In this document: positions 1 through 21,002 of the stretch, one piece after another
Layout of the letters: every line of letters begins with the position of its first letter
Numbering within the stretch: the first letter of the stretch is position 1
Source: a virus
IMG/VR virus record: IMGVR_UViG_3300025767_000013
Span: 1 to 64,000 of that record
Direction: 5' to 3' (one strand)
DNA length: 64,000 bases
Translations under genes and position numbers: made by a program
Notes under the pieces: model-generated
The model's input: the letters and a program-made list of their open reading frames with translations, nothing else
Database searches by the model: none
Told to the model about the DNA's origin: nothing

Positions 1-1811
1 ACGAAATCAGATATCAACCAGATAGGTATGTTTTGGTATCGGAATGGAGTAGAAGAAAATTTGAACATTTGGGTATTGATACAACTGTTTGGGAATATCC
101 TATCGATACAATTGAATACGATAAATCTGAATTCAAAAAAGAATTGGGATTTGAAGAAGATTGGAAGCATGTTCTAATGGTTGGATTATTTACGCCCGGT
201 AAAAATCAAAGTGAGATATTCAATATAGCTAGACAATTAGAAAAGTTCAAAATCAAATTTCATTTTGTTGGAAACCAAGCTATGAACTTTGAATCATATT
301 GGAAACCACTAATGGAATTCAAACCCGATAATTGTATTGTTTGGGGTGAAAGACAAGATGTGGATAAGTTTTACAAAGCATCCGATATGTTCTACTTCAG
401 TTCAATATTGGAATTGAATCCACTCTCAATTAAAGAAGCATTGGGGTATGGATTAGAATGCATCTTCCGAAAGTTGGATACATACTTAGATACCTATGAC
501 TCAAATGAATTGGTTACCTATATTGATGATAATTTGGATAAAACCAAACGAATTATATTAGAAAAATTAATGCCGGAATTTAATCAAATTCCTGGTTGGT
601 TTTCTTACCAACAAATTTATGATTCGGTTGTAGAAAGTGGGAATAACAACTCTTTATTTGTTGAGTTGGGTAGTTGGTTTGGTAAATCAACAAACTATAT
701 GGCAACCAAAATAAAGGAATCGGGTAAAACAATAAACTTTACCGCTATTGATACTTGGAAAGGTACTGATGATGAAATCCTACACCAAAACATAGTTGGT
801 TCATATGGTGGTGATATATTCTCTGAGTTTATGGAGAATACTATTTTGAGTAAGAACTATAAAGGATTAAACTTAATCAAAGATACATCAGAAAACGCAT
901 CTCAGCAATTTCCTATGTGTAGTATCGATTATATGATGATTGATGCTGGGCACGATTACGATTCAGTTAAGGGGGATTTGAATAGATGGTATCCAAAGAT
1001 TAAACCTGGTGGAATTATTAGTGGTGATGATTTTGCTACAAATATTTTCGAAGAAGTTACACAAGCCGTTGGTGAATACTTTTATGACCAAGTTACTATG
1101 GTTGGTTATAATTGGTTTAGAAATAAACCAAAGATTCAAATCAAACATTTGTTGACAAGACCGGATGATTTGAGAGAACAAATCAGTATTGAATCAATCA
1201 GACAATTGGCACAATATGGTATCATATACGAACCAATGGTAAACGAACCATACACACAACCAGCACCCGCTGAGTTTTGTAGGAGACCGGAACATCTAAG
1301 TAAAGATAATAAGCCGGGTGAGTTATACACTGGAGCTGGATTGGGTTGGATAACTGGTGGACACTACGGATGTTATATGGCTCACCGAAGAGCATTGGAA
1401 ACAATGGATGACAAATTTGATTACACTCTTATCTTTGAAGCAGATGCATATATTTTCACTGGGTTAAAAGAGTTTGTTGATATCATTCATAAGGCGTGTT
1501 TTATTTCTGAGAGAGATAAAGTTCCTTACATTTCATTTGCGGATAATCCATCTCGTTCTAAGGAAAAAATTGATGAGTTATTTTCCAAAACCGCATCAAA
1601 TCAAGACCTTGCTCACGCATACTTAATTCCCAATAGAGAAAAACAATGGTGGTTGGATAGAATCAATGATTGTGAATGGGATGTGGCTGATTTATGGTAT
1701 AACCATGTGTTCTTCCACCATCATAGACCTCGTTACACAACTAACAAAGTTTACTCAAAGCAAGCGGAAGGATTTTCATTATTGGATTTAACTAACAAAA
1801 CTTGGAAATGA
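1..1811 (+). CDS. Glycosyltransferase / methyltransferase / glycosyltransferase fusion (5' partial)
   Basis: The reading frame is open to the left edge, so the true start lies before the window; the first in-frame start-like codon (TTG at 33) is internal. Numbering from there: residues 1-180 look like the C-terminal half of a GT-B (family 4-like) glycosyltransferase, with a VGLFTPGKNQ strand-loop and an E-x7-E-like tail (LELNPLSIKEALGYG at 126-140). Residues 186-365 are a class I SAM methyltransferase (VELGSWFGKST at 210-220 as motif I; IDAGHDYDSVKGDL at 303-316; KPGGIISGDD at 324-333). Residues 405-592 resemble a GT25-type or related phage glycosyltransferase (GHYGCYMAHRRALE at 443-456, then LIFEADA at 466-472, where many relatives have an acidic E/D-D-D triad). 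It overlaps the next gene by ATGA, so it is the first visible member of a coupled sugar operon. Domain families are recognised by motif only; donor and acceptor are unknown. Confidence 0.75.
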   Translation, partial: EIRYQPDRYVLVSEWSRRKFEHLGIDTTVWEYPIDTIEYDKSEFKKELGFEEDWKHVLMVGLFTPGKNQSEIFNIARQLEKFKIKFHFVGNQAMNFESYWKPLMEFKPDNCIVWGERQDVDKFYKASDMFYFSSILELNPLSIKEALGYGLECIFRKLDTYLDTYDSNELVTYIDDNLDKTKRIILEKLMPEFNQIPGWFSYQQIYDSVVESGNNNSLFVELGSWFGKSTNYMATKIKESGKTINFTAIDTWKGTDDEILHQNIVGSYGGDIFSEFMENTILSKNYKGLNLIKDTSENASQQFPMCSIDYMMIDAGHDYDSVKGDLNRWYPKIKPGGIISGDDFATNIFEEVTQAVGEYFYDQVTMVGYNWFRNKPKIQIKHLLTRPDDLREQISIESIRQLAQYGIIYEPMVNEPYTQPAPAEFCRRPEHLSKDNKPGELYTGAGLGWITGGHYGCYMAHRRALETMDDKFDYTLIFEADAYIFTGLKEFVDIIHKACFISERDKVPYISFADNPSRSKEKIDELFSKTASNQDLAHAYLIPNREKQWWLDRINDCEWDVADLWYNHVFFHHHRPRYTTNKVYSKQAEGFSLLDLTNKTWK

Positions 1812-2950
1812 TTTACGATAAATTAAAAAAGAATCTAAACAACATTGTTGATATTTCCAATAGAATTATCATCAGTTTCATCAATGGACCTAAAGTAGAA
1901 ATTTTAGGTAATAATGATTTAGAATATAGTGTTCAGTTTATAAACAATAAAAACAATGAGATAATTTTTGAAAGTAAAATCAGAAATAATCATTGGACTA
2001 AGTGTAGTATTGAGTATTTTATTGATTGGAGAATCAACATATTTCAAAATGGTGAATTGATAAAAACTTACAACTATAATGCAAATGGTAAACGAGTATT
2101 TATCGCATTGGATTCAAAAGCATTGGGAGATACATTGGCATGGTTTCCATACTTTGATGAATTTAGAAAAAAACATAATTGTGAATTAGTTGTATCAACA
2201 TTTCACAATAATATGTTTAGACATCAATATCCTCATATTGAATTTGTGGAACCTGGTTCAGTTGTTCAAAACTTATACGCTATGTATTGTGTTGGATTAT
2301 TTTATACATCCGATGGTAGTGTAAACATTTACAAAAACCCAAATGATTTCAAAACACAAACAATGCAAAAAATGGGTTCTGATATTTTGGGACTGGAGTA
2401 TAAAGAAATTAAACCACTTCTTCCACAAAAGAATATTAAGAAAGATGATAAGTTAATCACTATTGCAATTCACGGAACCGCACAACCAAAATATTGGAAC
2501 AATCCAAATGGTTGGCAGGATGTGGTAGATTGGTTGAACAACAGAGGTTATACAGTCAAACTACTTTCAAGAGAAGGAAATGATTATATGGGTAACAAAC
2601 ATCCAAATGGAGTTATCCAACATCCAAACGGACCTATTGAAAAGGTAATGGATGAGATGAGAAAATCAAAAGCATTCATTGGTATTGGTAGTGGATTAAG
2701 TTGGTTGAGTTGGGGGTTGGGAACTAAGACGGTATTGATTAGTGGATTCTCCTACGATTGGGCAGAAATGCAAGATTGTGTTAGAATTGGTACACCTGAA
2801 GGAAAGTGTAGTGGATGTTTTAATCGATTAAGATTAGATGCTGGTGATTGGAATTGGTGTCCAGACCACAAAGGAACCGAAAGACAATTTGAATGTACTA
2901 AATCACTTACATCAGAAATGGTAATCAAAGAATTAGAAAAGTTCTTATGA
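1808..2950 (+). CDS. TibC/Aah-type protein O-heptosyltransferase (BAHT family)
   Basis: 380 residues from the ATG at 1808, which overlaps the upstream stop (ATGA). An N-terminal beta-rich domain (about 1-95) precedes a GT-B fold of the heptosyltransferase (GT9) superfamily. LDSKALGDTLAW at 101-112 carries the family's catalytic-type Asp region. IGIGSGLSWLSWG (291-303) and VLISGFS (309-315) match the donor-binding part of the autotransporter heptosyltransferases. Four cysteines at C334, C337 (CSGCF), C351 (NWCP) and C363 (FECT) reproduce the iron-binding finger that marks the TibC/Aah group and is absent from ordinary LPS heptosyltransferases. Known members transfer heptose from ADP-heptose to serines in repeated strand-loop-strand proteins. 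The next two genes encode ADP-heptose synthesis steps, which supports the donor. The acceptor is not shown by the sequence; the phage's own repeat fibres are the best candidates, host surface proteins an alternative. Confidence 0.82.
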   Translation: MIYDKLKKNLNNIVDISNRIIISFINGPKVEILGNNDLEYSVQFINNKNNEIIFESKIRNNHWTKCSIEYFIDWRINIFQNGELIKTYNYNANGKRVFIALDSKALGDTLAWFPYFDEFRKKHNCELVVSTFHNNMFRHQYPHIEFVEPGSVVQNLYAMYCVGLFYTSDGSVNIYKNPNDFKTQTMQKMGSDILGLEYKEIKPLLPQKNIKKDDKLITIAIHGTAQPKYWNNPNGWQDVVDWLNNRGYTVKLLSREGNDYMGNKHPNGVIQHPNGPIEKVMDEMRKSKAFIGIGSGLSWLSWGLGTKTVLISGFSYDWAEMQDCVRIGTPEGKCSGCFNRLRLDAGDWNWCPDHKGTERQFECTKSLTSEMVIKELEKFL

Positions 2951-3336
2951 AGAAAGTTTGGATGAATGGTTGTTTTGATGTTCTACATCATGCTCACTTC
3001 AAAATGATTGAGTTCGCATCTACCTTTGGTGATTTAGTTGTAATTGGAATTGATTCCGATAGACGAGTTAAAGAACTAAAAGGTGAAGATAGACCTTTCC
3101 ATTCTCAAGAAGAACGAAAATACAATTTAGAAAGAATCAAAGGGGTTAGTAGAGTGTTTATATTTGATTCATCTCAATTGTTAGAAGAATTAATAAAAAC
3201 TTACGAACCTGATGTATTTGTTATCGGTTCGGATTATAAGAATAAACCAATCGTTGGTGAACAATATGCTAAATCAATTGTTTACTTTAATCGAATGGTG
3301 GAGTTCAGTACAACTAAAATATTAACAAATGAGTAA
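2947..3336 (+). CDS. hldE2-like: D-glycero-beta-D-manno-heptose 1-phosphate adenylyltransferase (HldE C-domain / RfaE2 type)
   Basis: A 129-residue nucleotidyltransferase of the cytidylyltransferase-like HxGH superfamily, matching the C-terminal domain of bacterial HldE as a free protein. Visible motifs: NGCFDVLHHAH (8-18) at the nucleotide-binding site, where the usual HxGH reads HHAH; GIDSDRRVKELKGEDRP (33-49); EER-x-LERIKGV (55-65); VFVIGSDYKNKPIVGE (95-110); and the closing STTKIL. HldE transfers AMP from ATP to heptose 1-phosphate to make ADP-heptose. The general glycerol-3-phosphate cytidylyltransferase family is the alternative, but the KELKGEDRP and GSDY segments and the neighbouring kinase favour heptose. 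It starts in an ATGA overlap with the heptosyltransferase and ends inside the next gene, so translation is probably coupled. Confidence 0.8.
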   Translation: MKKVWMNGCFDVLHHAHFKMIEFASTFGDLVVIGIDSDRRVKELKGEDRPFHSQEERKYNLERIKGVSRVFIFDSSQLLEELIKTYEPDVFVIGSDYKNKPIVGEQYAKSIVYFNRMVEFSTTKILTNE

Positions 3337-4081
3337 AGTATTGGTTATTGGAGAAGTATGTACAGACATCTTCATTTATGGAGATACCCCACGTCTTTCA
3401 CCCGAAGGACCTGCACCTGTATTTCTTCCGAAGAGAGAAACTTACACTTTGGGAATGGGAATGAATGTGGTATTAAATCTAAAATCATTGGGAATGGATG
3501 CCAACTTCACAAACCAACTTCAACCCATCACAAAGACACGATATATTCACGATTCATCAAACACATTGTTATTAAGACTTGATGAAGAAGAGAATATTGA
3601 TAATGTTGGTGAAAGATTAACAGAGATAGATTTTTGGGAATACTCAATGGTAGTAGTATCAGATTACAACAAAGGATTCCTAACTGAAGAAGATATTGCA
3701 TATATCGGATTCAAACACCCAAATGTAATTTGTGATACAAAGAAAAAGTTGGGTGAATGGTGTAGGGATTTACGATTCATTAAACTCAATCGTTCTGAAT
3801 ATGAAAACAACAAAGATTTTATTCAACAAAACGATTGGATTTTAGAAAAGTTAATAATTACATTAGATAAGGATGGGTGTATGTACAATGGTACAAAATA
3901 TCCAACCGAACAAGTAGAGATAATGGATATATCAGGAGCTGGTGATACATTTGTAGCAGGATTTGTGAAAATGTTCTTAGATACTGAAGATATTCCAAAA
4001 TCAATACAATTCGGAAATCGTTGTTCAGCTCAAGTTGTACAAAAACGAGGTGTAACAACAATAGATTACGAAAATTTATAA
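3329..4081 (+). CDS. hldE1-like: D-beta-D-heptose 7-phosphate kinase (HldE N-domain / RfaE1 type, PfkB family)
   Basis: A 250-residue PfkB/ribokinase-family kinase, shorter than the roughly 310-residue bacterial HldE kinase domain. The N-terminus follows the HldE pattern: VIGEVCTDIFIYGDTPRLSPEGPAPVF (6-32), in which RxSPExPxPV is characteristic of this subfamily. SDYNKGFL (111-118), IKLNRSE (151-157) and the catalytic DISGAGDTF (200-208, with Asp206 as the general base) are intact. A usual GGAANV-like stretch reads GMGMNV (42-47). The enzyme phosphorylates heptose 7-phosphate at O1. It overlaps the adenylyltransferase by 8 bases. The order transferase-adenylyltransferase-kinase is a split and inverted version of the fused bacterial HldE. 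The isomerase (GmhA) and phosphatase (GmhB) of the pathway are not in the window and must come from upstream or from the host. Confidence 0.82.
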   Translation: MSKVLVIGEVCTDIFIYGDTPRLSPEGPAPVFLPKRETYTLGMGMNVVLNLKSLGMDANFTNQLQPITKTRYIHDSSNTLLLRLDEEENIDNVGERLTEIDFWEYSMVVVSDYNKGFLTEEDIAYIGFKHPNVICDTKKKLGEWCRDLRFIKLNRSEYENNKDFIQQNDWILEKLIITLDKDGCMYNGTKYPTEQVEIMDISGAGDTFVAGFVKMFLDTEDIPKSIQFGNRCSAQVVQKRGVTTIDYENL

Positions 4082-4506: not shown

Positions 4507-7500
4507 ATGAACGAACTATCTCAGTTTTTAGTAGAAAGTATATTAGGGGAAGCGGACAGTGTAGACAACCTCGTTGTAGTTTACGCTGGCCGCTTTCAAC
4601 CTTTTCATAAGGGTCATTACGCAACTTATTCGCACTTAGTAAAGAAGTTCGGAAAAAATAATGTTTATATCGGAACATCTAATAAAACCGATAATCAAAA
4701 ATCTCCATTCAATTTTAAGGAAAAGAAAGAAATAATGACAACGATGTTTGGTGTTCCATCAAACAAAATCGTTGAAGTTAAAAATCCATATCAACCTACT
4801 GAAGTTATGAGTAAGTTTGATAAGGATACTACTGCGTTCATTACCGTAGTTGGTAAGAAAGATGCAAGTAGATTGGGTGGTAAATACTTTGAACCATATA
4901 AAGATGGTAAAGAGTTAGAAGGATATAGAGATAGAGGGTATGTTTACATTGCACCAGAACAACCAAATGGTGTAAGTGGTACCGAAGTTCGAATGGGATT
5001 GAGACGAGGTTCTGACGAGGATAAGAAAGAGTTTTTTACCAAAAGAGCATATGGTAAGTTCAATCCTAAAATATTCAAATTTATTGCTGGTAAATTAGCA
5101 CAACTTCCAGAGATTACATCTGAAACCATTTGGATTCCAAAACACATAGTTGAAAGTTGGTTAATCGGTAATGTTGAACTAATCAAAGAAGCATCATCTA
5201 TTATTGGTAAAACCGAAGTGGATGATGGACCTAATTTCCTTTTCCCATCATATGCATCGTTTGAAAAGATTTCACAAAGACGAGCTGAGAAAATTGGAAT
5301 GACTGTTCTATCGCAAATTATGAGTGATGAACTTACTGATATTGACCCACACCCAATTTATCCAAAAGGACCTGTAAAAGCAGTAACTCCATTCCCTGCA
5401 GGTGTGATTGGTAAGGTAACCGCAACCAACCAAAAAGATTACTATGGTTCAGTTGCATATAACAAATGGTTTAAGCATGTTAGTAGAGTTGCTAGTTTAG
5501 TTGGATACTCTTTAGTAGATTCAATTGATTTGGATACTGATAAAATTGAAGCAGAAAAAACAAAAAAGATTACTGGTGTAAAATTACCTGTTATTAAGGA
5601 GGATATCACTATACCTGTAAACATTGGTGATACTATCTTAATGGGTAAATTCAAAAACAAAAAAGTAGTTGTTAAATCTATTGGTAAAGATGAGTATGGA
5701 ATGCCAACTATCAATGGTAAGAAAGTAGCAACTTTCCGAATGATTAAAGAAGGTAACGAAATCGAATTTAATTATTTGAATGAATCTGATATTGTTAAGT
5801 TAAATAACACATTAGGAATTGAAAGGGGTGAACTACCTCAAATACCAAAAGATTCAATCGAAGAATATTTGGGATATTTGGAATCGAATGGAATTCAATT
5901 CGAAATCCAATCTCAGCCGGTAGCATCTTTGAATTCAACGCAAACCGAAATCAATTTTGATAAGGTTAGAGATATGATGATTGATGATGATGTAAATAAC
6001 ACACCAATCATTGTATCTAAAGATGATTATATCTTAGATGGACATCATAGAGCATTAGCAGCATTTAATTCTGATAAAGAATCAGAAATACCTGTAATTA
6101 AAATTGATTTACCAATCGATGAGTTGATTGATGTATCAAATGATTTTAATGGTTCATATAACGAAGATTTAGATGAACAAACTCTAAATGAATTCAATGG
6201 TGTTAGATTTGATGTAATTGGATATGATAAGAATGGTAAACAAGTTGATATGTATCTTCCAAGAGCAAGATTCGGGTTTATGAAAAACATCGTACATGCT
6301 TCAGCTGATAGATTATTCAAAAGTGGTATCTCAAAAGGTAATGGTATTAACTACATTGAAATTTACTATGATAAACATCATTTAGGAACTATTAGATTAC
6401 CACAAAAATTCACTAAAGGTAAAGATTGGGATAAATTACCAATCAACGAAATCCCAATGGCGGATTTGGTAAAGATTGATTCATTCGCAGATAAACAACT
6501 AAACCCAGTAGATGTAGTTCTAACTGACAAACATTTCTTCGATAGATTAAATGACCCTCGTAATGGTAAAGAAATCTCAAACGCAGAGTTGATTGGATTC
6601 TTTAAGAGATTGGGTAAGAATAAAAAGAAATTTGTTGAATTCTTAAACCAATATGGTCAAATCGTAGCAAAGGATAATAGAACGAATATCAACATTCCAT
6701 TTATGAAGCAGGCGAACAAAGTAATCGCTAAAACCATAATGAGAAAATCTGATTTCAAAACATCTTCACCTGAATATGAATTCGAAGCTAAAAAGAATGA
6801 TGAGTTTGAATACAACGAACCATACGCATTGGGTGGTGGAATCTCTGAAGCAAACGCAGTAAGTGGTGGTAAAGTTCACAAATACATTACTGGTAAAAAT
6901 CTTACACTCAAAGGTAAGAAGTATTCAGATATTGAATTTGAAGTATTGGGTATTGATAACAAATCTCAGTTAGTTAAACTTAAAGTTCTATCTCCAAAGA
7001 ATTTATTCGGTGAGGAAATCAATGTTCCATTCAAAACAATTAGAAGAGGACCATTTATTAAAACCAACACAAATATTAGTGAAGGTTTACTAACTGAAGG
7101 TGGGGCATACGGACATATGAATCATCCATTTGATACTGAAATCAATTTAACTTTCGGACAATTAAAAGATATTGTAAATAAAGCATTAGAAGGTAACTTA
7201 GAACTAACGAGAGAAAAAACCGATGGACAAGCATTGGCAATCTCTTGGGTAAATGGTAGATTGGTTGCTGCTAGAAATAAAGGACACTTAAAGAACAAAG
7301 GAGCTGGTGCATTGGATATCAATGGGGTAGCAATGAAGTTCGCTGGTAGAGGTGAGTTAGAGAAAGCTTACAACTTCGCAATGAAAGACCTTTCAAAAGC
7401 AATCTCCAAACTTTCGGAAAAACAAAGAGAGAAAATATTCAAAGGTGGGGCGTGTTTTATGAATTTGGAAGTAATCTATCCAACTTCTGTTAATGTAATT

Positions 7501-8298
7501 CCTTACGGACAAGCACTCTTAGTATTCCACGGAACAATGGAGTATAATGAGGATGGTATTGCAATTGGTGAGAATCAAGAAGCAGCTAAAATATTGGCTG
7601 GTATGATTAAACAAATCAACGCAGATGTTCAATCCGCTTACACAATCCAAGGCCCACCTGTAACTAAATTACCACAAAGTAAAAACCTATCCTCATTAAA
7701 AGGAAAGTATAATTCACAAATCTCAAAACTTCAATCTCAATTTAAGTTGAAGGATAGTGATGGAATCGCAGATTACCATCAAGCTTGGTGGACTGATTTT
7801 GTAACTAAGAAATCACCATCAACTTTAGATAACAAAACCTTAATGGGATTGGTTAAGAGATGGGCATTCTACGATAAATCATTTAGATTGGATAGTAAGA
7901 ATATTTCAGACCCAAAAGTATTAGATTGGGCTCAAGGTATCGATAAAAATGACCACGCTAAAATAGCTAAAGATAACATCAGACCATTTGAAGATATTTT
8001 CTTAGGTGTAGGTTCAGATGTACTTTCATTTATGAGTTCAGTACTTACCGCAAATCCTAACTCAGCAGTTAGGGATATGAAGAAACGATTAGACCAAACT
8101 ATCGCTGATGTTAAGAAAGGTGGAGACCCAAAGAAAGTTGCAAAACTTAAATTGGAGTTGGAAAGATTGAACGCAATCGGTGGTAAAGATAAGATTGTTC
8201 CAAACGAAGGAATCGTATTTGTGTATGGTGGAAAAACTTTCAAATTGACCGGAACCTTCGCACCATTGAACCAAATCTTAGGATTATTTTACGAATAG
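4507..8298 (+). CDS. Multidomain internal virion protein candidate: NMN-adenylyltransferase-like, ParB-like and ligase-like domains
   Basis: 1263 residues. Residues 21-200 are an adenylyltransferase of the NadM/NadR type (AGRFQPFHKGH at 27-37; SGTEVR at 157-162, the ISSTxxR-like motif). Residues 480-545 resemble a ParB/sulfiredoxin-type domain (ILDGHHRALAAF at 509-520). Residues 670-730 hold a conserved-looking segment of unknown function (DKHFFDRLNDPRNGK). Residues 865-1263 resemble an ATP-dependent polynucleotide ligase/nucleotidyltransferase: EKTDG with Lys904 as likely AMP acceptor (KxDG), NLEVIYP (986-992), and NEGIVFV plus KLTG near the C-terminus. Candidate prohead-protease sites, (L/I)-x-E before A or G, separate the parts: after E15, E228, E781, E859 and E864, with a weaker LNE|F at 562. 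This suggests a polyprotein cut into separate proteins inside the head. The domain assignments come from motifs only. Confidence 0.72.
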   Translation: MNELSQFLVESILGEADSVDNLVVVYAGRFQPFHKGHYATYSHLVKKFGKNNVYIGTSNKTDNQKSPFNFKEKKEIMTTMFGVPSNKIVEVKNPYQPTEVMSKFDKDTTAFITVVGKKDASRLGGKYFEPYKDGKELEGYRDRGYVYIAPEQPNGVSGTEVRMGLRRGSDEDKKEFFTKRAYGKFNPKIFKFIAGKLAQLPEITSETIWIPKHIVESWLIGNVELIKEASSIIGKTEVDDGPNFLFPSYASFEKISQRRAEKIGMTVLSQIMSDELTDIDPHPIYPKGPVKAVTPFPAGVIGKVTATNQKDYYGSVAYNKWFKHVSRVASLVGYSLVDSIDLDTDKIEAEKTKKITGVKLPVIKEDITIPVNIGDTILMGKFKNKKVVVKSIGKDEYGMPTINGKKVATFRMIKEGNEIEFNYLNESDIVKLNNTLGIERGELPQIPKDSIEEYLGYLESNGIQFEIQSQPVASLNSTQTEINFDKVRDMMIDDDVNNTPIIVSKDDYILDGHHRALAAFNSDKESEIPVIKIDLPIDELIDVSNDFNGSYNEDLDEQTLNEFNGVRFDVIGYDKNGKQVDMYLPRARFGFMKNIVHASADRLFKSGISKGNGINYIEIYYDKHHLGTIRLPQKFTKGKDWDKLPINEIPMADLVKIDSFADKQLNPVDVVLTDKHFFDRLNDPRNGKEISNAELIGFFKRLGKNKKKFVEFLNQYGQIVAKDNRTNINIPFMKQANKVIAKTIMRKSDFKTSSPEYEFEAKKNDEFEYNEPYALGGGISEANAVSGGKVHKYITGKNLTLKGKKYSDIEFEVLGIDNKSQLVKLKVLSPKNLFGEEINVPFKTIRRGPFIKTNTNISEGLLTEGGAYGHMNHPFDTEINLTFGQLKDIVNKALEGNLELTREKTDGQALAISWVNGRLVAARNKGHLKNKGAGALDINGVAMKFAGRGELEKAYNFAMKDLSKAISKLSEKQREKIFKGGACFMNLEVIYPTSVNVIPYGQALLVFHGTMEYNEDGIAIGENQEAAKILAGMIKQINADVQSAYTIQGPPVTKLPQSKNLSSLKGKYNSQISKLQSQFKLKDSDGIADYHQAWWTDFVTKKSPSTLDNKTLMGLVKRWAFYDKSFRLDSKNISDPKVLDWAQGIDKNDHAKIAKDNIRPFEDIFLGVGSDVLSFMSSVLTANPNSAVRDMKKRLDQTIADVKKGGDPKKVAKLKLELERLNAIGGKDKIVPNEGIVFVYGGKTFKLTGTFAPLNQILGLFYE

Positions 8299-9707: not shown

Positions 9708-11291
9708 ATGGCTGAAGCTAAAAAGACATTAAAACAAATTATCGCTGAGGAATATCAGAGGTGTGCAAAAGACCCGATATACTTTATGCGAAAGTATTGT
9801 ATGATTCAACATCCGGTGAGAGGAAAAATTCCCTTTCACCTTTTTCCGTTTCAAGAAGATACACTTACTCAATTCAAAGACCATCGTTACAACATCGTAT
9901 TGAAATCTCGCCAAACTGGTATCTCAACACTAACCGCAGGATTCTCTTTGTGGAAAATGTTATTCAATGATGATTACAATGTATTGGTAATTGCAACCAA
10001 ACAAGAGGTAGCTAAGAACCTTGTAACGAAGGTTAGGGTGATGAACCAATACTTACCTTCTTGGTTAAAGTTAACAACCGTAGAAGATAACAAACTATCT
10101 CTGCGATACTCAAATGGTTCACAAATAAAAGCAACTTCAGCAGCTGGAGATGCCGGTCGTTCTGAAGCACTATCCCTTTTAGTATTTGATGAGGCAGCCT
10201 TCATTGATAAGATTGAAGAAATTTGGATTTCTGCACAATCTACTTTATCAACTGGTGGTTCTGCTATCGTACTATCTACGCCAAATGGTGTCGGTAACTT
10301 CTTCCACAAAACTTGGGTAGGTTCTGAAGATGGAACTAATGGATTCAATAACATCCGAATTCATTGGAGTGTTCACCCTGAAAGGGAGCAAGCATGGAGA
10401 GATGAGCAAGAGGTTCTATTAGGACCAAAAGGAGCAGCGCAGGAATGTGATTGTGATTTTGTTTCTTCGGGTGATTCAGTTATTGACCCACAACTATTAC
10501 AATTCTACAAAGATACCTATGTACAAGAACCAGTTGAAAGAGGTGGATTCGATGGTAATCTTTGGAAATGGGAATATCCAAACTATTCAAAATCATATAT
10601 GGTTGTAGCGGACGTTGCGAGGGGAGATTCTTCCGACTACTCCGCTGCGCATGTAATTGATGTTGAGGATTCATCTCAAGTAGCAGAATATAGAGGTAAG
10701 TTGGATACAAAGGATTTTGGAAATTTCTTAGTAGCATTAGCAACCGAATACAATAACGCATTGTTGGTGATTGAAAACGCAAATGTTGGATGGGCAGCTA
10801 TTCAACAAGTAATCGATAGAAACTATTCTAATCTTTACTATATGAGTAAGGATTTGAAATATGTGGATGTGGAGAATCAATTATCAAACAAATATCGTTC
10901 TGAGGATAGGGGAATGGTGGCTGGATTCTCAACAACATCAAGAACTCGTCCTTTGATTATCTCAAAGTTGGAAGAATATGTTAGAGAAAAATCTATCACA
11001 ATCCGTTCAGTAAGAACCATTGATGAGTTGTTCACATTTATTTGGAACAATGGTAGAGCTGAAGCAATGCGAGGTTACAATGATGACCTTACAATGGCAT
11101 TGGCAATCTCACTTTGGGTAAGAGATACAGCTCTTAGATTAAGACAAGAGGGGATTGATTTAACAAAACAGGCACTTAATGGTATATCTTCATATACTTA
11201 TACTGGGATATATGGTGGAAACGATATAGATGAAAACCCTTGGCAAATGAAAATTGGAGATTCCGTTGAGGACCTATCAAAATGGTTATAA
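9708..11291 (+). CDS. 17: Terminase large subunit (gp17-like packaging ATPase/nuclease)
   Basis: 527 residues, close to the usual length of T4-type large terminases. The ATPase domain has a Walker A variant (SRQTGIST, 67-74), Walker B (LLVFDEAAF, 157-165) and the coupling motif LSTPNG (189-194). The nuclease domain of the RNase H fold follows: VADVARGDSSDYS (300-312, with Asp302), VIENANVG (354-361, with Glu356) and NDDLTMALA near the C-terminus. It powers DNA translocation into the prohead and cuts the concatemer. Four bases separate it from the spanin-like gene, so lysis and packaging genes may share a transcript. The portal comes next but one, without the tail sheath and tube genes that separate them in T4. 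Confidence 0.95.
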   Translation: MAEAKKTLKQIIAEEYQRCAKDPIYFMRKYCMIQHPVRGKIPFHLFPFQEDTLTQFKDHRYNIVLKSRQTGISTLTAGFSLWKMLFNDDYNVLVIATKQEVAKNLVTKVRVMNQYLPSWLKLTTVEDNKLSLRYSNGSQIKATSAAGDAGRSEALSLLVFDEAAFIDKIEEIWISAQSTLSTGGSAIVLSTPNGVGNFFHKTWVGSEDGTNGFNNIRIHWSVHPEREQAWRDEQEVLLGPKGAAQECDCDFVSSGDSVIDPQLLQFYKDTYVQEPVERGGFDGNLWKWEYPNYSKSYMVVADVARGDSSDYSAAHVIDVEDSSQVAEYRGKLDTKDFGNFLVALATEYNNALLVIENANVGWAAIQQVIDRNYSNLYYMSKDLKYVDVENQLSNKYRSEDRGMVAGFSTTSRTRPLIISKLEEYVREKSITIRSVRTIDELFTFIWNNGRAEAMRGYNDDLTMALAISLWVRDTALRLRQEGIDLTKQALNGISSYTYTGIYGGNDIDENPWQMKIGDSVEDLSKWL

Positions 11292-11777: not shown

Positions 11778-13532
11778 ATGGCAGAACAACAAAATAGTTC
11801 ATTCTTTCAGAGACTAACGAAACTCTTCTCCACCCAAGCGGTTGTAACAATCGATGCGGAAGGTAAGAGAAAGATTAAGGATGTCGATGATAGACAGCAG
11901 GGTAGTACCAACTTAATGAATTTAAGAGATAGGTACACTAAACTTCAGCGTTCATTCTATGGTGACCAAATGGCAGCCCAATCAATGGCATATCACCAAG
12001 TTCGTAGAGAATTATTTAGAGATTACGATGCTATGGATAATGACCCCATTATCTCATCCGCATTAGATATCTACGCTGATGAATCTACTTTGAAAAATGA
12101 GTTTGGAGAAGTAGTTCAAATCAAAACACAAAACGAAAGAGTTAAAGAAATCTTAGAAAACCTTTTCTATGATATTCTTAATGTAGAGTTTAACCTTTGG
12201 GCATGGACTCGAAATATGGTGAAATATGGTGATTTCTTTTTATCATTAGAAATTCAGCCAGGCAGTGGTATCATTAATGTAAAACCACTTCCAGTTTACG
12301 AAACTGAAAGATTGGAGAATACTGATGCAAACAATCCAAACTATGTAAAGTTCAAAGTTAACCATGACCCAAATGGTAAGGGTGAGTATGAGAACTTTGA
12401 AATCGTTCACTTCCGTTTATTATCAGATACAAACTTCCTTCCTTATGGTAAGGCAATGATTGAGAATGGTAGAAGAATTTGGAAGCAGGTTTCTTTGATG
12501 GAAGATGCGATGTTAATCCATAGAATTATGAGAGCTCCGGATAAAAGAGTTTTCAAAATTGATATTGGTAACATACCACCGCAAGAAGTAGATAACTACA
12601 TGCAGAAGATTATCAACAAAATGAAGAAAACTCCATTTGTTGACAAGAATACTGGTGATTACAACTTAAAGTATAACATCCAAAACCTAACCGAAGATTT
12701 CTTCTTACCTGTTAGAGGTGGTGATAGTGGTACTGAGATTGATTCATTGGGTGGATTACAATACACCGCAATTGAAGATATCGATTACCTAAAGAACAAA
12801 ATGTTCGCAGCTCTTAAAATTCCAAAAGCATATTTGGGATATGATGAGAATGTAAATGGTAAAGCAACTTTGGCAGCAGAAGATGTTAGATTTGCAAGAA
12901 CGATTGAAAGAATCCAAAGAACATTAGTATCCGAACTTACTAAACTTGCTGTTGTTCACTTAGCATCACAAGGTATTGAAGGTTCTGATATGGTTGATTT
13001 CGAATTGAATTTGGTAAATCCATCTACAATTTATGAACAAGAGAAAGTAAACCTTTGGAGTGAAAAAGTGAGATTGGTTTCTGATATTACTCAATTGAAT
13101 ATGATTTCAAAAGAGTGGGCATATGAGAACATCTTTAATATGAGTAAGGATGAAATCGACCATCAGAAAACAAATCTTATCAATGATATTAAGGATAGAT
13201 ATCGTTATCGTATGATTGAGGATGAGGGTAATGACCCTGCGGTTCAATCAGAACCATCGGATGTTGAGAATGAGTTGGAAGAATTAAAAACCGAACTCAG
13301 TAACAAAGGTGGTAGACCAAGAGAGGGTAACACTTATGGTAAAGATAAACACCCATATGGTAGAGACCCATTAGGAGCAAAGGAAAATCAAAAAGCACTT
13401 AAAAAAGAAGTTTCATCTGAAAAAATGGCCCATAAATTAGCCAAAGAATATGTAAATGGAATTTCAGCAAAGAAGAGAGTAATTTCTGAAAAGAAGGACT
13501 TTTTGAATGATGACAATTTGTTAGACGATTAA
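11778..13532 (+). CDS. 20: Portal vertex protein (gp20-like)
   Basis: 584 residues. The N-terminal and middle parts follow the T4 gp20 pattern: RRELFRDYDAMDNDPIISSALDIYADE (about 74-100), YGDFFLSLEI, HFRLLSDTNFLPYGKAMIENGRRIWKQ and the clip/stem region LMEDAMLIHRIMRAPDKRVFKIDIGN, then KMKKTPFVDKNTGDYNLKYN and YLGYDENVNGKATLAAEDVRFARTIERIQ. Twelve copies form the ring through which DNA enters and on which the prohead core nucleates. The C-terminal 90 residues are low-complexity and charged (GGRPREGNTYGKDKHPYGRDP) and probably disordered. It follows the small core protein by 29 bases. Confidence 0.93.
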   Translation: MAEQQNSSFFQRLTKLFSTQAVVTIDAEGKRKIKDVDDRQQGSTNLMNLRDRYTKLQRSFYGDQMAAQSMAYHQVRRELFRDYDAMDNDPIISSALDIYADESTLKNEFGEVVQIKTQNERVKEILENLFYDILNVEFNLWAWTRNMVKYGDFFLSLEIQPGSGIINVKPLPVYETERLENTDANNPNYVKFKVNHDPNGKGEYENFEIVHFRLLSDTNFLPYGKAMIENGRRIWKQVSLMEDAMLIHRIMRAPDKRVFKIDIGNIPPQEVDNYMQKIINKMKKTPFVDKNTGDYNLKYNIQNLTEDFFLPVRGGDSGTEIDSLGGLQYTAIEDIDYLKNKMFAALKIPKAYLGYDENVNGKATLAAEDVRFARTIERIQRTLVSELTKLAVVHLASQGIEGSDMVDFELNLVNPSTIYEQEKVNLWSEKVRLVSDITQLNMISKEWAYENIFNMSKDEIDHQKTNLINDIKDRYRYRMIEDEGNDPAVQSEPSDVENELEELKTELSNKGGRPREGNTYGKDKHPYGRDPLGAKENQKALKKEVSSEKMAHKLAKEYVNGISAKKRVISEKKDFLNDDNLLDD

Positions 13533-13614: not shown

Positions 13615-14493
13615 ATGAAGAGGGTAAAACATTCAAAATTCAAAAATACGGGTATTCTATTTGAGCTACTTGTGAGGCAAATCACATTGGAGGTCTTAAA
13701 TGGTGATACTACCGAAAAGGCGAAGAAAATTGTTAAAGAGTTCTTCTCTTCCAGCACGGAATTGAACAAAGAACTTAGACTATATGATTTGCTTATAAAA
13801 GAAAGATACAATTCAGAATCAAGAGCTGAGAAATTCATTGATACTGTCAATGAAGCTCACGATAGAATTGACCAAAATAAACTACAAAGAGAGAAGTATA
13901 ATCTTATCAAAAAGATTAACGAATCATTCAATATGGATGAGTTCTTATCTTCTCCTATTTCGAACTATAAAGTTCTTGCATCTATCTATAAGATTTTTGA
14001 ATCGAAGAGATATACCGATTATGATGTAAAGGATGTATTTAACTCAAAAATTACCCTCATTGAGAATATCACATCAAAACCATCAACATTGGTAGAAACA
14101 AAAGATTCGGCAGATAAAATTGTTGAATCATATAAAAAGCAAGACAAAGATTTAAGATTACTTACCTATAAAATCTTAGTTGAAACTTTCAACAAAAAGT
14201 ATTCTAATTTAGATGAAAATCAAAAACAACTATTAAAGCAGTATATTAACAATATTACTAATACTACTGGATTTAAGTCTTATGTTGAAAAAGAAATCCC
14301 ATCTATTGTTGCTGAATTAAATCAAATTCAAAAGCAAATCAAAGATAAAGTAACTAAAATCAAATTATCAGAAACCATTTCTGTATTAAAGAAAACCAAA
14401 ATTGGTAAGGTGGTATCTGATAACCACGTTTCATCGTTGATGATTTCATACGAACTTATAAAGGAGTTAAAGGAAAAGGTAAATGGAAAGTAA
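13615..14493 (+). CDS. Conserved head-module protein, function unknown
   Basis: 292 residues, lysine-rich and largely helical. The N-terminus (MKRVKHSKFKNTGILFELLVRQITLEVLNGD) is strongly patterned and looks like a conserved family signature. The middle and C-terminus carry coiled-coil segments (LNQIQKQIKDKVTKIKLSE). No catalytic motif, signal or membrane segment is visible. It sits between the portal and the gp67/gp68-like core protein and overlaps the latter by 11 bases, so a role in prohead core formation or portal attachment is likely from context alone. Confidence 0.7.
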   Translation: MKRVKHSKFKNTGILFELLVRQITLEVLNGDTTEKAKKIVKEFFSSSTELNKELRLYDLLIKERYNSESRAEKFIDTVNEAHDRIDQNKLQREKYNLIKKINESFNMDEFLSSPISNYKVLASIYKIFESKRYTDYDVKDVFNSKITLIENITSKPSTLVETKDSADKIVESYKKQDKDLRLLTYKILVETFNKKYSNLDENQKQLLKQYINNITNTTGFKSYVEKEIPSIVAELNQIQKQIKDKVTKIKLSETISVLKKTKIGKVVSDNHVSSLMISYELIKELKEKVNGK

Positions 14494-14932: not shown

Positions 14933-14947
14933 TTGGGAATTAGAACT

Positions 14948-16282
14948 ATGAGCATTACCAAAGAACAATTGAAGGAAACACTTCGTAACATAATGAAAGA
15001 AGAATCTGATTATCAGACATTCTTCAAAGCAGCTTTAGAAAAAGCAGGAAAATCAATTCCATCAATGTCTGATGATGAAAAGAAAGTATTCTTTAATAAG
15101 ATTGATGCTGCTTGGGATGGTAAAGGTGAGAAGAACGAAGAGTTAACTGGAAACCAACACAAATTGGATATTGATGGTGATGGTGAAATTGAAGCATCTG
15201 ATTTAGCAGCATTAAGAGCTAAAAAAGATGAATCAGTAACCGAAGGTAAAAAAAGATTTAATACTATGTATGGTGTTGGTAAATCGAAATATGTAGTAAA
15301 CTATCACGATGGTTCAAAGAAACACAAGGATGGTAGTGATTTCTTTGATATTCAAACTTTCAAAAATCAAAAAGACTTTGATAAATTCCAAAAAGCGCTT
15401 TTACAAAAAGGATTCATTGAAGAATCAGTAAACGAAGCAGCTAGTAGAACCGCAATGGAAATTGGTGGTTTGACTGGAATGAACAAAGATGCAATCCAAA
15501 AGTTTGTTGATACTAATGAGTTGGATATTGAAAAGGTTTTTCAATTTGTTAAAAAAGGAAAACTGTCAGATAGAATGGATTTGGTATCTGCAATTGCTGG
15601 AAAGCCAGGTAATCCTATTCAAAAGAAAATGATTAAGATGTTCGGTGAATCAGTAAACGAAGGCGTTTCTCCAAAGGATATGGATAAAATCAAAACCGCA
15701 GTAGAAGCAGCATCTTCATTTATGGGAATTGGTTCTGAGTTAAAGAAATCTGGATTAAAGTATGTATTCGCTACATCTCCAATGCCAATTTATGTAGTTC
15801 AACCAACTCCTAATAATAGAGTTGTTATCGTAAATAAGAAATACGCATCTAAACCTGATTTCGTTTATGGTGATACCGCAGTTGGTGTAATGGAATCTCT
15901 TACTGAAGGTAGAGCATTTATCAACGCAGCTAAGAAAGCAAAAGCTGAAGGTAAAACCGAATTTGAATTCAATGGTAAAACCTACCCAGTAACCATCAAA
16001 GAAAATTTAACTGAAGCAAGATTAGGTAAAGTTGCTTTGTTAAAGCAAGTTGAAAAAGGTAACACATCTCAAATAGAGGGTGTAAAGATTTCTTCGGATT
16101 TGGCATTCGAATTAAGAATGTTCTTAGAAAGACCAATTATGGCAAGAAGTAGAACTGGTATCGCTATTGATAATTCACAGATGAAGGATGCACTTAAAAT
16201 GATGGTGAATGCTGGAATTGAAAAAAGATTATCTGGTGGTGTTAAAGCTGAATTCAAAAAATTAATTGAAAAATACAAATAA
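14948..16282 (+). CDS. Internal head polyprotein candidate with five protease-like sites
   Basis: 444 residues from the ATG at 14948 (an in-frame TTG at 14933 abuts the previous stop and is less likely). Residues 1-99 carry a dockerin/EF-hand-like calcium loop, DIDGDGEIEASDL (74-86). The same short linker, E-(S/N)-(V/L)-(T/N)-E followed by G or A, occurs five times: after E99, E163, E238, E320 and E356. Between the linkers lie compact, mostly basic segments of 36-99 residues, including FNTMYGVGKSKYVVNYHDGSKK, a helical segment at 164-238, a 239-320 segment, GRAFINAAKKAKAEGKTEFE (321-340) with FNGKTYPVTI, and a helical basic C-terminal part. The layout fits a precursor cut by the protease encoded next door into up to six internal proteins. 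No enzyme is recognised. Confidence 0.7.
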   Translation: MSITKEQLKETLRNIMKEESDYQTFFKAALEKAGKSIPSMSDDEKKVFFNKIDAAWDGKGEKNEELTGNQHKLDIDGDGEIEASDLAALRAKKDESVTEGKKRFNTMYGVGKSKYVVNYHDGSKKHKDGSDFFDIQTFKNQKDFDKFQKALLQKGFIEESVNEAASRTAMEIGGLTGMNKDAIQKFVDTNELDIEKVFQFVKKGKLSDRMDLVSAIAGKPGNPIQKKMIKMFGESVNEGVSPKDMDKIKTAVEAASSFMGIGSELKKSGLKYVFATSPMPIYVVQPTPNNRVVIVNKKYASKPDFVYGDTAVGVMESLTEGRAFINAAKKAKAEGKTEFEFNGKTYPVTIKENLTEARLGKVALLKQVEKGNTSQIEGVKISSDLAFELRMFLERPIMARSRTGIAIDNSQMKDALKMMVNAGIEKRLSGGVKAEFKKLIEKYK

Positions 16283-16293
16283 GGAATACCAAT

Positions 16294-16881
16294 ATGAAAA
16301 GTTTAATTATAGAAACCAATTTGTTTGAAGGAAGAGTTAACGAAGATGCTTCGGGTAGAACTTTGGTGAAAGGTGTCCTTCAAAGAGCAGGTGCAGAAAA
16401 CCAAAATGGTAGAGTGTACCCAAAAGGAATTTTAGAAAGAGAAGTAAACAAATATCAACAACTCATCAAAGAAAGAAGAGCATTGGGTGAGTTAGACCAT
16501 CCTGATTCTTCAGTAATCAACCTAAAGAATGTATCTCATAATATTAAAGAAGTACATTGGGAAGGTGAAGATGTAGTTGGTACTGTTGAAATTCTTCCAA
16601 CTCCATCTGGTAATATCTTAAAAGAATTATTAAGAGCAGGAATCCTATTGGGTATCTCATCAAGAGGTATGGGTTCGGTAAAACCAATGGAAGGTAACAA
16701 AGTAGTAGTTGGTGAAGATTTTGAATTAATCGGTTGGGACTTTGTTTCTAACCCATCTACACATGGTGCATTTATGACTCCAATGAACGAATCAGTAGTT
16801 AAAGGTATTGGTACTGATGTTTGTGGAGATTTTTGTAAAGCACAAGATTTAATGAGAGAAATTATAACGGAGTTAGTATAA
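16294..16881 (+). CDS. 21: Prohead core scaffold protease (gp21-like)
   Basis: 195 residues, a serine protease of the T4 gp21 (U9/S80) group. ALGELDHP (63-70) supplies the likely catalytic His69 and GISSRGMGSV (120-129) the serine. GWDFVSNPSTHGAFM (147-161 region) is typical of the family's C-terminal part. The N-terminus contains LFE|G and VNE|D, possible self-cleavage points. The enzyme matures the prohead by cutting core and capsid proteins after (L/I)-x-E; matching motifs are found in its neighbours. It has an AAGGA ribosome-binding site and its stop overlaps the next start (TAATG). It is a little shorter than T4 gp21. Confidence 0.9.
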   Translation: MKSLIIETNLFEGRVNEDASGRTLVKGVLQRAGAENQNGRVYPKGILEREVNKYQQLIKERRALGELDHPDSSVINLKNVSHNIKEVHWEGEDVVGTVEILPTPSGNILKELLRAGILLGISSRGMGSVKPMEGNKVVVGEDFELIGWDFVSNPSTHGAFMTPMNESVVKGIGTDVCGDFCKAQDLMREIITELV

Positions 16882-19382: not shown

Positions 19383-21002
19383 ATGGCAAATTTTGATTTA
19401 TCTAAGTTAATGGAAGGCCGTAACCCACAAGCAGTAATGTTGAACGAAACTCGTCAACTTAAAGGCAAATGGGAAGCAACTGGTCTTCTTGAAGGCTTAA
19501 ACGCAAAAGAGCAAGGCGCGATGGCGGTATTGCTTGAAAACCAAGCAAAACAATTGCTTGATGAGGCAACCCAAACTGGTGTTGCTGCAAGTTCAGAAGA
19601 ATGGAGTGGCGTAGCTCTTCCATTGGTAAGAAGAATCTTTGGTGAGATTGCTTCTAAAGAATTCGTTAGTGTACAACCTATGAACTTACCTTCAGGTCTT
19701 GTATTCTATCTTGATTTCAAATATGGTACTGCACAAGGTGGTAACCCTGCATTCTCTGGAAAATCACTTTTCGGTGGTACTGGAGCTGACTTAGGTTCTA
19801 CTGATTCAGCAGTAAATGGTTTATATGGTGAAGGTCGTTTCGGATACTCTGCAAACGATGTAACTTCATCTGTAGCTGTTGGTTCAATCACCTTCACTTC
19901 AGCTTCTTGGGCTGATGTAGGTTTCGATGCTTCTCTTTCTGCTTCAGTAGCAGCAGGTGAGGTTGCTAAAGCAACTTTCGCAGCTCCTGCAACTGCAGAT
20001 TTAGATGGTGTTCGTTCTTTCAATGTAGCTAACGCTGCAGTTGTAACTAACTTGAACCAATTCCACTCAGTATCTGGTACTGACTTAGTGTTGATGGTAT
20101 CTGCATCTGCAGGTTTACAAACTTCTAAGGCTGGATTTGGTGTTGTTACCTATTCAGTAGTTCCTGCTGATTACGCAAGAGGTGATTTCGAAGATGGTAA
20201 AAACGCTGGTCAAATCGCTGGTAATGCTGGTTCAGTTGGTATTGATATCGACATCCCAGAAGTTGATTTGGAATTGAAATCAGAAGCTATCGTTGCTAAG
20301 ACTAGAAAGTTGAAAGCAGTATGGACTCCTGAATTAGCGCAAGACCTTAACGCTTACCACTCAATCGATGCAGAGGCTGAATTGACCTCTATGTTATCTG
20401 ATTACATCTCATTGGAAATCGACTTAGAAATCCTTGATATGTTGAAGTCTAACGCATTGACTACTGAGTACTGGTCAGCAACTATCGGTGAAGAGTACAA
20501 CGCTTCAACTGGTGCATGGTCTGCAGCTGCAACTGGTATGGCATACCAAAAGAACACTTGGTTCCAAACCCTTGGTACTAAGTTGAACAAAGTATCTAAC
20601 AAAATTCACCAATTGACATTAAGAGGTGGCGCTAATTTCGTAGTTGCTTCTCCTGATGTATGTACTATCTTGGAATCAATCCCTGGATTTACTGTATCTG
20701 CGGATAAAGATGCTTCATCTTTCGCAGCTGGTGTAACTACTGTTGGTGCTATCGCAAACAGATACACTGTTTATAAGAACCCTTACATGACTTCTAACGA
20801 AATCTTATTAGGTTTCAGAGGTTCTAACTTCTTAGAGACTGGTGCTGTTTACGCTCCATATGTTCCACTTATCATGACTCCATTGGTGTATGACCCAACT
20901 AACTTTACTCCTCGTAGAGGTGTAATGACTAGATACGCTAAGAAGATGGTAAGACCAGAATACTACGGACGTATCTTCGTTAAAGATTTAGCTTCTATCT
21001 AA
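19383..21002 (+). CDS. 23: Major capsid protein (gp23-like)
   Basis: 539 residues, HK97 fold by family. The N-terminal region holds LLE|G (36-39) and LLDE|A (58-62). Cleavage after E61 would remove a 61-residue propeptide, close to the 65 residues removed from T4 gp23. The segment that follows (VALPLVRRIFGEIASKEFVSVQPMNLPSGLVFYLDFKYG) is the standard gp23 pattern. The conserved C-terminal blocks include IHQLTLRGGANFVVASPDVC, YKNPYM, ILLGFRGSNFLETGAVYAPYVPL and FTPRRGVMTRYAKKMVRPEYYGRI. Residues about 140-270 carry a serine/alanine-rich insertion. Codon choice is richer in GC than in its neighbours, as expected for a highly expressed gene. A terminator follows. Confidence 0.96.
   Translation: MANFDLSKLMEGRNPQAVMLNETRQLKGKWEATGLLEGLNAKEQGAMAVLLENQAKQLLDEATQTGVAASSEEWSGVALPLVRRIFGEIASKEFVSVQPMNLPSGLVFYLDFKYGTAQGGNPAFSGKSLFGGTGADLGSTDSAVNGLYGEGRFGYSANDVTSSVAVGSITFTSASWADVGFDASLSASVAAGEVAKATFAAPATADLDGVRSFNVANAAVVTNLNQFHSVSGTDLVLMVSASAGLQTSKAGFGVVTYSVVPADYARGDFEDGKNAGQIAGNAGSVGIDIDIPEVDLELKSEAIVAKTRKLKAVWTPELAQDLNAYHSIDAEAELTSMLSDYISLEIDLEILDMLKSNALTTEYWSATIGEEYNASTGAWSAAATGMAYQKNTWFQTLGTKLNKVSNKIHQLTLRGGANFVVASPDVCTILESIPGFTVSADKDASSFAAGVTTVGAIANRYTVYKNPYMTSNEILLGFRGSNFLETGAVYAPYVPLIMTPLVYDPTNFTPRRGVMTRYAKKMVRPEYYGRIFVKDLASI

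Follow-up and report, generated by a model that had tools for sequence, protein, structure and literature searches.

What would a phage gain from one long gene, placed just upstream of its terminase, that joins nucleotidyltransferase-like and ligase-like enzymes in a single chain? The question is raised by the window analysed here, 64,000 of the 70,657 bases of IMG/VR virus record IMGVR_UViG_3300025767_000013, which belongs to an uncultivated phage with T4-like head genes. The gene under study is an ATG open reading frame (ORF) at 4507-8298 on the plus strand (+), encoding 1263 amino acids (aa). A preliminary description of this DNA had named three domains in it, NMN-adenylyltransferase-like (NMNAT-like), ParB-like and polynucleotide-ligase-like, and the motifs that it quoted are all in place: GRFQPFHKGH at residues 28-37, SGTEVR at 157-162, ILDGHHRALA at 509-518 and EKTDG at 903-907 (with K904), and likewise, towards the C-terminus, NLEVIYP at 986-992, EGIVF at 1234-1238 and KLTG at 1246-1249. 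The NMNAT-like and ligase-like domains are borne out and the ParB-like one is weak; a three-domain title understates the protein, which has further modules at about residues 229-355, 361-415, 563-645, 646-765 and 782-859. From sequence, predicted models and analogy with T4, we lean towards reading the whole gene as encoding a predicted head-cargo polyprotein, which would be packaged in the head, cleaved by the prohead protease and, on injection, restore RNA and perhaps NAD.

The first step is to ask what the two end enzymes are. The N-terminal one (residues 16-216; 4552..5154, +) has the fold and the GxFxPxHxGH and SGTxxR motifs that form the nucleotidyltransferase-fold signature of NadM and NadR. 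Pfam CTP_transf_like matches it above the family cut-off (E 1.1e-8), and does so at E<=0.01 in 39/39 full-length representatives, the window among them. NadM is the best PDB sequence match (E 1.2e-5), and the predicted model, with a block at pLDDT 67-93 over residues 21-200, upholds the fold, since Foldseek places NadM 2qjt first (E 2.1e-6) and VIA gives Z 12.0-13.0 (rmsd 2.7-3.7, 142-166 residues aligned) to NMNAT and phosphopantetheine adenylyltransferase (PPAT) chains alike. Because PPAT chains score as high as NMNATs, the substrate is unproven. Compared with NadM, the domain has the same fold and both motifs, but it falls far below the curated cut-offs of the NCBIfam NMNAT models (32.8 bits vs 397 and 30 vs 127); we thus use only the label NMNAT-like. 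The Pfam search listed no Nudix family for the window protein. Far from being lost among homologues, the key residues of both end domains are invariant in a 39-row alignment (in this part G28-R-F, P32, H37, S157-G-T and R162), and on sequence and model together we consider it highly likely that this is an NMNAT-like enzyme.

The C-terminal domain (residues 865-1263, 399 residues; 7099..8295, +) is a predicted ligase-like covalent nucleotidyltransferase with K904 as the putative nucleophile. EKxDG, which contains motif I (KxDG), occurs in 102/102 distinct domain sequences, and K904, D906, G907, E988, E1234, G1235 and K1246 are invariant in the 39-row alignment. In a Foldseek search of the PDB with an AlphaFold2 model built from 29 sequences (pLDDT 84.7, pTM 0.80), the eight best matches come from just two archaeal RNA ligases, each represented by its chains (E 6.2e-3 to 2.9e-2). 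Among the 50 VIA matches listed, the first 36 are without exception RNA or DNA ligases, a methyltransferase following in row 37; the top match is 5cou (Z 8.0, rmsd 4.1, 183 aligned), and DNA ligases reach Z 6.9 or less, vs 8.0 for the best RNA ligases. A DNA ligase, the other reading weighed, is possible as well. These matches uphold the earlier claim of a ligase-like domain with Lys904, and by the model the domain very probably has the ligase-superfamily fold. In DNA ligases and capping enzymes an OB domain follows. In the window protein only 18 residues are left from KLTG to the C-terminus, so that no OB domain follows; this and the VIA and Foldseek ranking favour an RNA-ligase-like enzyme, which is unproven, and the modelled domain looks nearest to RNA ligases. 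Rnl1, Rnl3 and Naegleria-type RNA ligases resemble it in fold ranking and in motifs I, III and IV, whereas the window domain differs in having no significant sequence match to them, helices inserted ahead of motif IV, a motif V with a single invariant lysine and no domain past it. That it might use NAD is a guess.

Several results count against this assignment. The ligase model has no PDB match at E 0.001, and its best rows have TM-scores of about 0.2 and rmsd >15; the VIA score of Z 8.0 sits at the edge that VIA's own note calls common. No curated ligase family was matched in Pfam (E<=1), PHROG (E<=0.1) or the NCBIfam ligase models (E<=1), and a profile search against PDB sequences gave no useful match. 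Motif V of ligases usually has two lysines, and here one is invariant. The C-terminal domain could instead be another covalent nucleotidyltransferase, capping-like or AMPylating a host protein or RNA, with a partner that is no NMNAT. This alternative draws on the single motif V lysine, the missing OB domain and the large helical insertion in the model (helices about 196-360 of the model), together with the equal PPAT scores and low NCBIfam scores of the N-terminal part. RNA ligases are nonetheless the best fold matches, NadM is the best sequence match of the N-terminal part, and a CCA-adding enzyme travels as co-cargo in 5/39 representatives; we consider it rather unlikely, though the strongest of the three alternatives weighed here.

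How constant is the pairing of the two enzymes? From each IMG/VR scan 80 loci were taken, some of which share contigs. IMG/VR has relatives of the full protein in 365 stretches and of the ligase domain in at least 592. The ligase domain was found in 3/50,697 phage records (E<=1); in tblastn, 461 phage records have some match to the protein, and 53/60 of the matches listed are to the ParB-like part alone. Genome contigs gave four loci, all from metagenome-assembled genomes on contigs of 3-13 kb, which may be binned phage. Among complete ORFs with both end domains, the NMNAT-like one comes first in 128/128 (64 distinct, window included), and between 29 and 1401 residues separate the two matches. 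In Microcystis phage Mel-JY01 a single gene of 639 aa holds both the ligase and the NMNAT-like part. Across 41 representatives (820 pairs) the two end domains vary together, with r 0.89, a value as high as which was seen in 0/999 permutations. What lies between them changes: in 39 representatives the middle holds the head domain of a tRNA CCA-adding enzyme in 5, HD in 3, GNAT in 3 and DUF5661 in 10. PHROG tRNA nucleotidyltransferase is likewise found in 5 representatives, one CCA domain (L084) matches CCA-adding enzymes of known structure with E 1.8e-33, and GG-x-x-RD and D-x-D are present in the three CCA modules whose sequence was inspected. ParB-like, RegB-like and small modules are also found in 60 ORFs with neither end domain, a count that takes in repeated contigs and contig-cut ORFs. 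The middle of the protein is a swappable cargo region between two fixed enzymes, and the CCA-adding enzyme within it favours RNA repair over DNA ligation. The GNAT acetyltransferase module lies between the NMNAT-like and ligase-like domains in L028 (7776-12245) and in two other representatives.

In the window protein itself, the cargo region begins with a conserved module (residues 229-355; 5191..5571, +) whose model is mostly at pLDDT <50, followed by a small beta-rich module that recurs in other genes and ends in IKE/G, where the slash marks the predicted cut (361-415; 5587..5751, +). The ParB/sulfiredoxin-like (ParB/Srx-like) module comes next (427-562; 5785..6192, +), with LNE/S before it. 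Its D-G-H-H is invariant in 24 aligned rows, whereas the arginine is kept in 12/24, and family-level matches for the ParB-like domain that had been proposed are weak. ParB-like PHROGs match the DGHHR region at E 0.014-0.056; a PDB profile search found two proteins, which we take to have the ParB/Srx fold, at E 0.004-0.016, below chance matches to protein A; and tblastn aligns the ParB-like part with phage F116-type proteins at 30-34%. From sequence, residues 427-562 are weakly ParB/Srx-like. A further module (563-645; 6193..6441, +) precedes one that weakly resembles the T4 endoribonuclease RegB (646-765; 6442..6801, +), and a small module flanked by ISE/A and ISE/G sites (782-859; 6850..7083, +) completes the series.

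The RegB-like module is conserved in 32 aligned rows and has an invariant H-F-F-x-R. Pfam RegB matches 8/32 members, at best with 22.4 bits vs a cut-off of 27, and does not match the window copy; phmmer with one member found nothing, and a profile search against PDB sequences gave no useful match. A RegB-like relative is a separate gene near the terminase in Flavobacterium phage immuto. From its sequence the module is possibly RegB-like. A PBECR nuclease was also considered as its identity, and PBECR is not among the Pfam families matched. Structure prediction, proposed earlier as a check on each segment between sites, was confident over residues 1-781 for the NMNAT part and for no other segment (overall pLDDT 49.1), and it weighs against a polyprotein of many enzymes that the modules besides the NMNAT-like and ligase-like ones have no confident fold in the predicted models.

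Is the chain cut at its joints? A T4-type head maturation (prohead) protease, the presumed cutter (16294..16881, +; PHROG 207, E 8.1e-54), is encoded in the same window as the cargo gene, and the phage's site motif was read with the help of the major capsid protein (19383..21002, +), which has LLDE/A at residue 61. The window protein contains nine [ILV]xE[AGS] sites vs 3.36 expected, and 2/500 shuffles reach nine. Two of the sites are in the leader (residues 10 and 15) and the others between modules (216, 228, 415, 426, 781, 859 and 864); no site occurs in the terminase or the portal. The leader (residues 1-15; 4507..4551, +), with LVE/S and LGE/A, is read as a putative T4-type capsid-targeting propeptide, the joint at residues 216-228 (5152..5190, +) has two sites (IVE/S and IKE/A), and GLLTE (860-864; 7084..7098, +) ends the double joint ahead of the ligase domain. 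Among relatives, the pattern [ILVM]xE[AGSNDTQ] falls within the first 25 aa in 39/42 distinct N-termini. At the joint before the ligase domain, P3 is I or L and P1 is E in 78/78 testable distinct 12-mers, while P2 is free (79 were collected, one of them truncated; two further matches, a contig-cut row and L002, lack the start pattern). Counted by region in 34/39 representatives, linkers and cargo have 140 sites vs 51.7 expected, whereas sites are rare in the ligase core, 3 vs 29.6. Homology breakpoints in 84 representatives lie <=10 residues from a site in 329/1417 cases vs 110.5 expected. Where the ligase is a gene of its own (414 aa; 10 loci from 8 contigs), its product opens with a leader of 15 residues that ends in LLNE or LLKE, followed by GGAYGHM.

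Not all of the site evidence points the same way. Of the control motifs, [FYM]xE[AGS] is likewise overrepresented near breakpoints (2.17 times), as is [KDNST]xE[AGS] (1.61 times), the six controls apart from [FYM]xE[AGS] ranging from 0.59 to 1.61; the site statistics are non-independent, because the proteins are related and their linkers Glu-rich. The NMNAT core has about as many sites as chance would give (9 vs 9.1 expected), and the regional count leaves aside the 5/39 representatives in which a landmark is missing. The protein of a huge phage (L002) has neither a protease site nor a GGxxGH start. Among the 33 window ORFs tested, 13615-14493 leans site-rich too (5/500 shuffles), and a glycosyltransferase gene outside the head genes (33-1811) is site-rich at 20/500. 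The gene may therefore encode an ordinary cytosolic multidomain enzyme, made late and left unpackaged, in which (I/L)xE is a feature of acidic flexible linkers; the Glu-rich linkers, the enrichment of the two other xE motifs at breakpoints and the glycosyltransferase gene with more sites than expected are what such a protein would lead one to find. It would not lead one to find P3 I/L and P1 E at every testable joint with P2 free, a motif nearly absent inside the ligase domain, or a short leader with the same motif on stand-alone ligase genes, and the gene sits beside head genes. We judge this alternative to be unlikely.

The position of the gene is nearly constant. It shares its strand with the terminase large subunit (9708..11291, +), the conserved downstream neighbour, and lies 1.4 kb upstream of it; among distinct cases with >=7.5 kb of downstream sequence (n=55), the terminase is downstream on the same strand in 54/55, at a distance of 0.7-6.8 kb. 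The sole case with no terminase downstream, in a huge phage (L003), weighs against a strict link to head genes. The preliminary description had made delivery conditional on the protein being packaged and cleaved; that condition is a reasonable one, because the sites lie at the joints, the gene is among head genes and stand-alone ligase genes have a leader, and by analogy with T4 we consider packaging and cleavage likely.

A different possibility is that the protein is a classical polyvalent protein, a single uncut multi-enzyme chain that is injected whole, in which the sites would serve for leader removal and nothing else. The available portions of PMC5512222 describe polyvalent proteins whose domains include ParB-like ones, as well as the packaging of the N4 virion RNA polymerase uncut, and the order of the NMNAT-like domain before the ligase-like one is fixed in all complete fused ORFs. 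However, the sites lie at internal joints as well as in the leader, and the ligase, RegB-like and ParB-like modules are in separate genes in relatives; therefore, fusion is not needed for function. An uncut chain is, in our estimate, about as improbable as an unpackaged one. The window protein resembles polyvalent proteins in other respects: as set out in the accessible text of Iyer et al. 2017 (PMC5512222), these proteins combine many conflict-related domains in one chain near late genes, and the window protein likewise unites at least two different enzyme domains and is encoded near late or head genes. A ParB-like domain occurs among their domains (PMC5512222, in the portion available); in the window protein one of the DdrB-like type is weakly supported. 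The window protein differs from them in its prohead-protease-type joints and its fixed NMNAT-like and ligase-like pair; the same portion of that paper mentions RNA ligases only where it denies an association between them and the 2H domains found in polyvalent proteins (PMC5512222).

For the cleaved cargo that we favour, the closest precedent is T4 Alt. According to the available portion of PMC5694885, gp21 cuts Alt at ITE-6 and LTE-619, and the portions available of PMC5694885 and PMC5512222 have Alt injected along with the DNA. Alt and the T4 internal proteins that are gp21 substrates share with the window protein, which is known from genes alone, a short leader, (I/L)xE sites and a T4-type prohead protease in the genome. 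Alt, however, is one enzyme per gene, whereas the window precursor would hold several enzyme modules, separated by sites at their joints and open to exchange. We propose the following sequence of events. The N-terminal leader would build the precursor into the prohead, where the phage's own T4-type prohead protease would cut at the (I/L)xE joints. The pieces, namely the NMNAT-like enzyme, the ParB/Srx-like and possibly RegB-like modules, small linkers and the ligase-like nucleotidyltransferase, would remain in the head and enter the cell together with the DNA. Prohead entry, cutting, retention and injection are all inferred from the analogy with T4. The two fixed enzymes would form a constant payload, with a bay between them for cargo modules that are swapped at the protease joints. 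Once inside, and ahead of phage gene expression, the ligase-like enzyme may restore cleaved RNA (tRNA), helped in some relatives by the CCA-adding enzyme, while the NMNAT-like enzyme may raise or restore NAD or recycle NMN. Given that the ligase-like enzyme has CCA-adding co-cargo in some relatives, mending cut tRNA is the most parsimonious role; as a role, RNA repair is put forward tentatively, at a little short of even chances. The preliminary description had suggested that NAD depletion and tRNA- or DNA-cutting defences could be countered in this way, a role that is conceivable here.

A cousin of this pair may exist in cyanophages. There, a 'cytidyltransferase' gene (PHROG 395) is immediately preceded by a gene of ~400 aa with T-K-W-D-G, E-G-[FY]-V and K-[LF]-V, and this ligase-like and cytidyltransferase gene pair is present in S-PRM1, ACG-2014i, S-H9-2, S-RIM44 and P-RSM6. 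Methylophilales phage Melnitz-1 has, by match span, one small gene separating the ligase-like from the NMNAT-like gene, and the leader of the ligase-like gene ends in ITE. The ligase-like products belong to Pfam DUF6267 (E 1.5e-124 for ACG-2014i, E 3.5e-105 for Melnitz-1) and also to PHROG 455, the remaining cyanophage genes being placed in DUF6267 by alignment only. In all, 7/518 matching records were examined, six of them from the 60 matches listed and picked for a match spanning both genes; therefore, we make no statement on how common the pair is. The likeness to the window protein is the pairing of an NMNAT-like with a ligase-like gene, and the difference is that the genes are separate and stand in the opposite order, ligase-like upstream of NMNAT-like. 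In S-PM2 (L258 23026-24805, NC_006820), p141 and p142 look like a single gene, ligase-like plus NMNAT-like, whose reading frame is broken. The S-PM2 pair lies about 22 kb downstream of gp23.

The resemblance of the window ligase to this family is one of fold. Foldseek matched the ligase model to an S-PM2 protein (E 8.7e-5, TMq 0.38, rmsd 12), a 591-aa entry that by its length would be p141 plus p142. By profile, hhalign of the window ligase against the DUF6267 set was not significant (E 0.21, probability 0.3); direct kinship was set aside on that account, and the fold-level resemblance is kept. A profile search of the DUF6267 set against PDB sequences gave no useful match, and the literature searched held no paper on DUF6267. 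As regards packaging, the available parts of two papers (PMC10665884, PMC9602691) report that proteomics of S-CBWM1, S-SZBM1 and S-SCSM1 virions detected NMNAT-like proteins, and cytidyltransferases in cyanophage virions are mentioned in the S-CREM2 paper. A point against reading these as packaged cargo is that the proteome authors, in the same parts (PMC10665884, PMC9602691), allow for carry-over in CsCl preparations.

How much of this is new? Virions with NMNAT-like proteins, head proteins processed by a protease, and polyvalent proteins have all been described before. The literature searched, which covered few subscription papers, contained no head-cargo polyprotein with enzyme modules split by prohead-protease sites, no fixed NMNAT-like and ligase-like cargo pair and no CCA-adding enzyme in such a polyprotein. 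If our reading is true, T4-like phages deliver whole repair enzymes at infection, beyond inhibitors or modifiers; one precursor and the existing head protease provide a general means of loading many enzymes; and the protease sites serve also as recombination joints for cargo exchange. It would further suggest a function, open to experiment, for DUF6267 and for a widespread group of ligase-like proteins that matches no curated family. In its fullest form, T4-like phages would carry in the head a protease-released kit for RNA and NAD repair that undoes tRNA- and NAD-destroying defences before expression, with a so far unrecognised ligase family coupled to an NMNAT-like enzyme, interchangeable helpers such as the CCA-adding enzyme, DUF6267 as a possible cyanophage branch and exchange at the protease sites; taken as a whole, this is possible but doubtful.

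The surroundings of the gene have features of their own. Between the terminase and the prohead protease lie the portal (11778-13532) and an ORF of 449 aa (14933-16282, +) with seven [ILV]xE[AGS] sites vs 1.54 expected, a number reached in 0/500 shuffles. Its modules recur in relatives such as L152 and L040 with order or spacing changed, and it probably is a further polyprotein, of the head core or of the cargo type. Upstream of the cargo gene, a nucleotidyltransferase resembling heptose-phosphate adenyltransferase (PHROG 7878) adjoins a PfkB-type kinase (2947-4081, +), an arrangement reminiscent of a split HldE; of 101 loci, with repeated contigs counted, 67 have such a nucleotidyltransferase gene and 69 such a kinase gene upstream of the cargo gene. 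The site-rich ORF at 33-1811 (+) combines glycosyltransferase group 1, Methyltransf_24 and a weak glycosyltransferase family 25 match in one frame. Two giant ORFs, both on the plus strand, occupy 26231-40633 (4800 aa) and 41561-52768 (3735 aa), and the translation of the former contains many copies of a unit around 'RDVGYILDAVATDL..GGNERS'.

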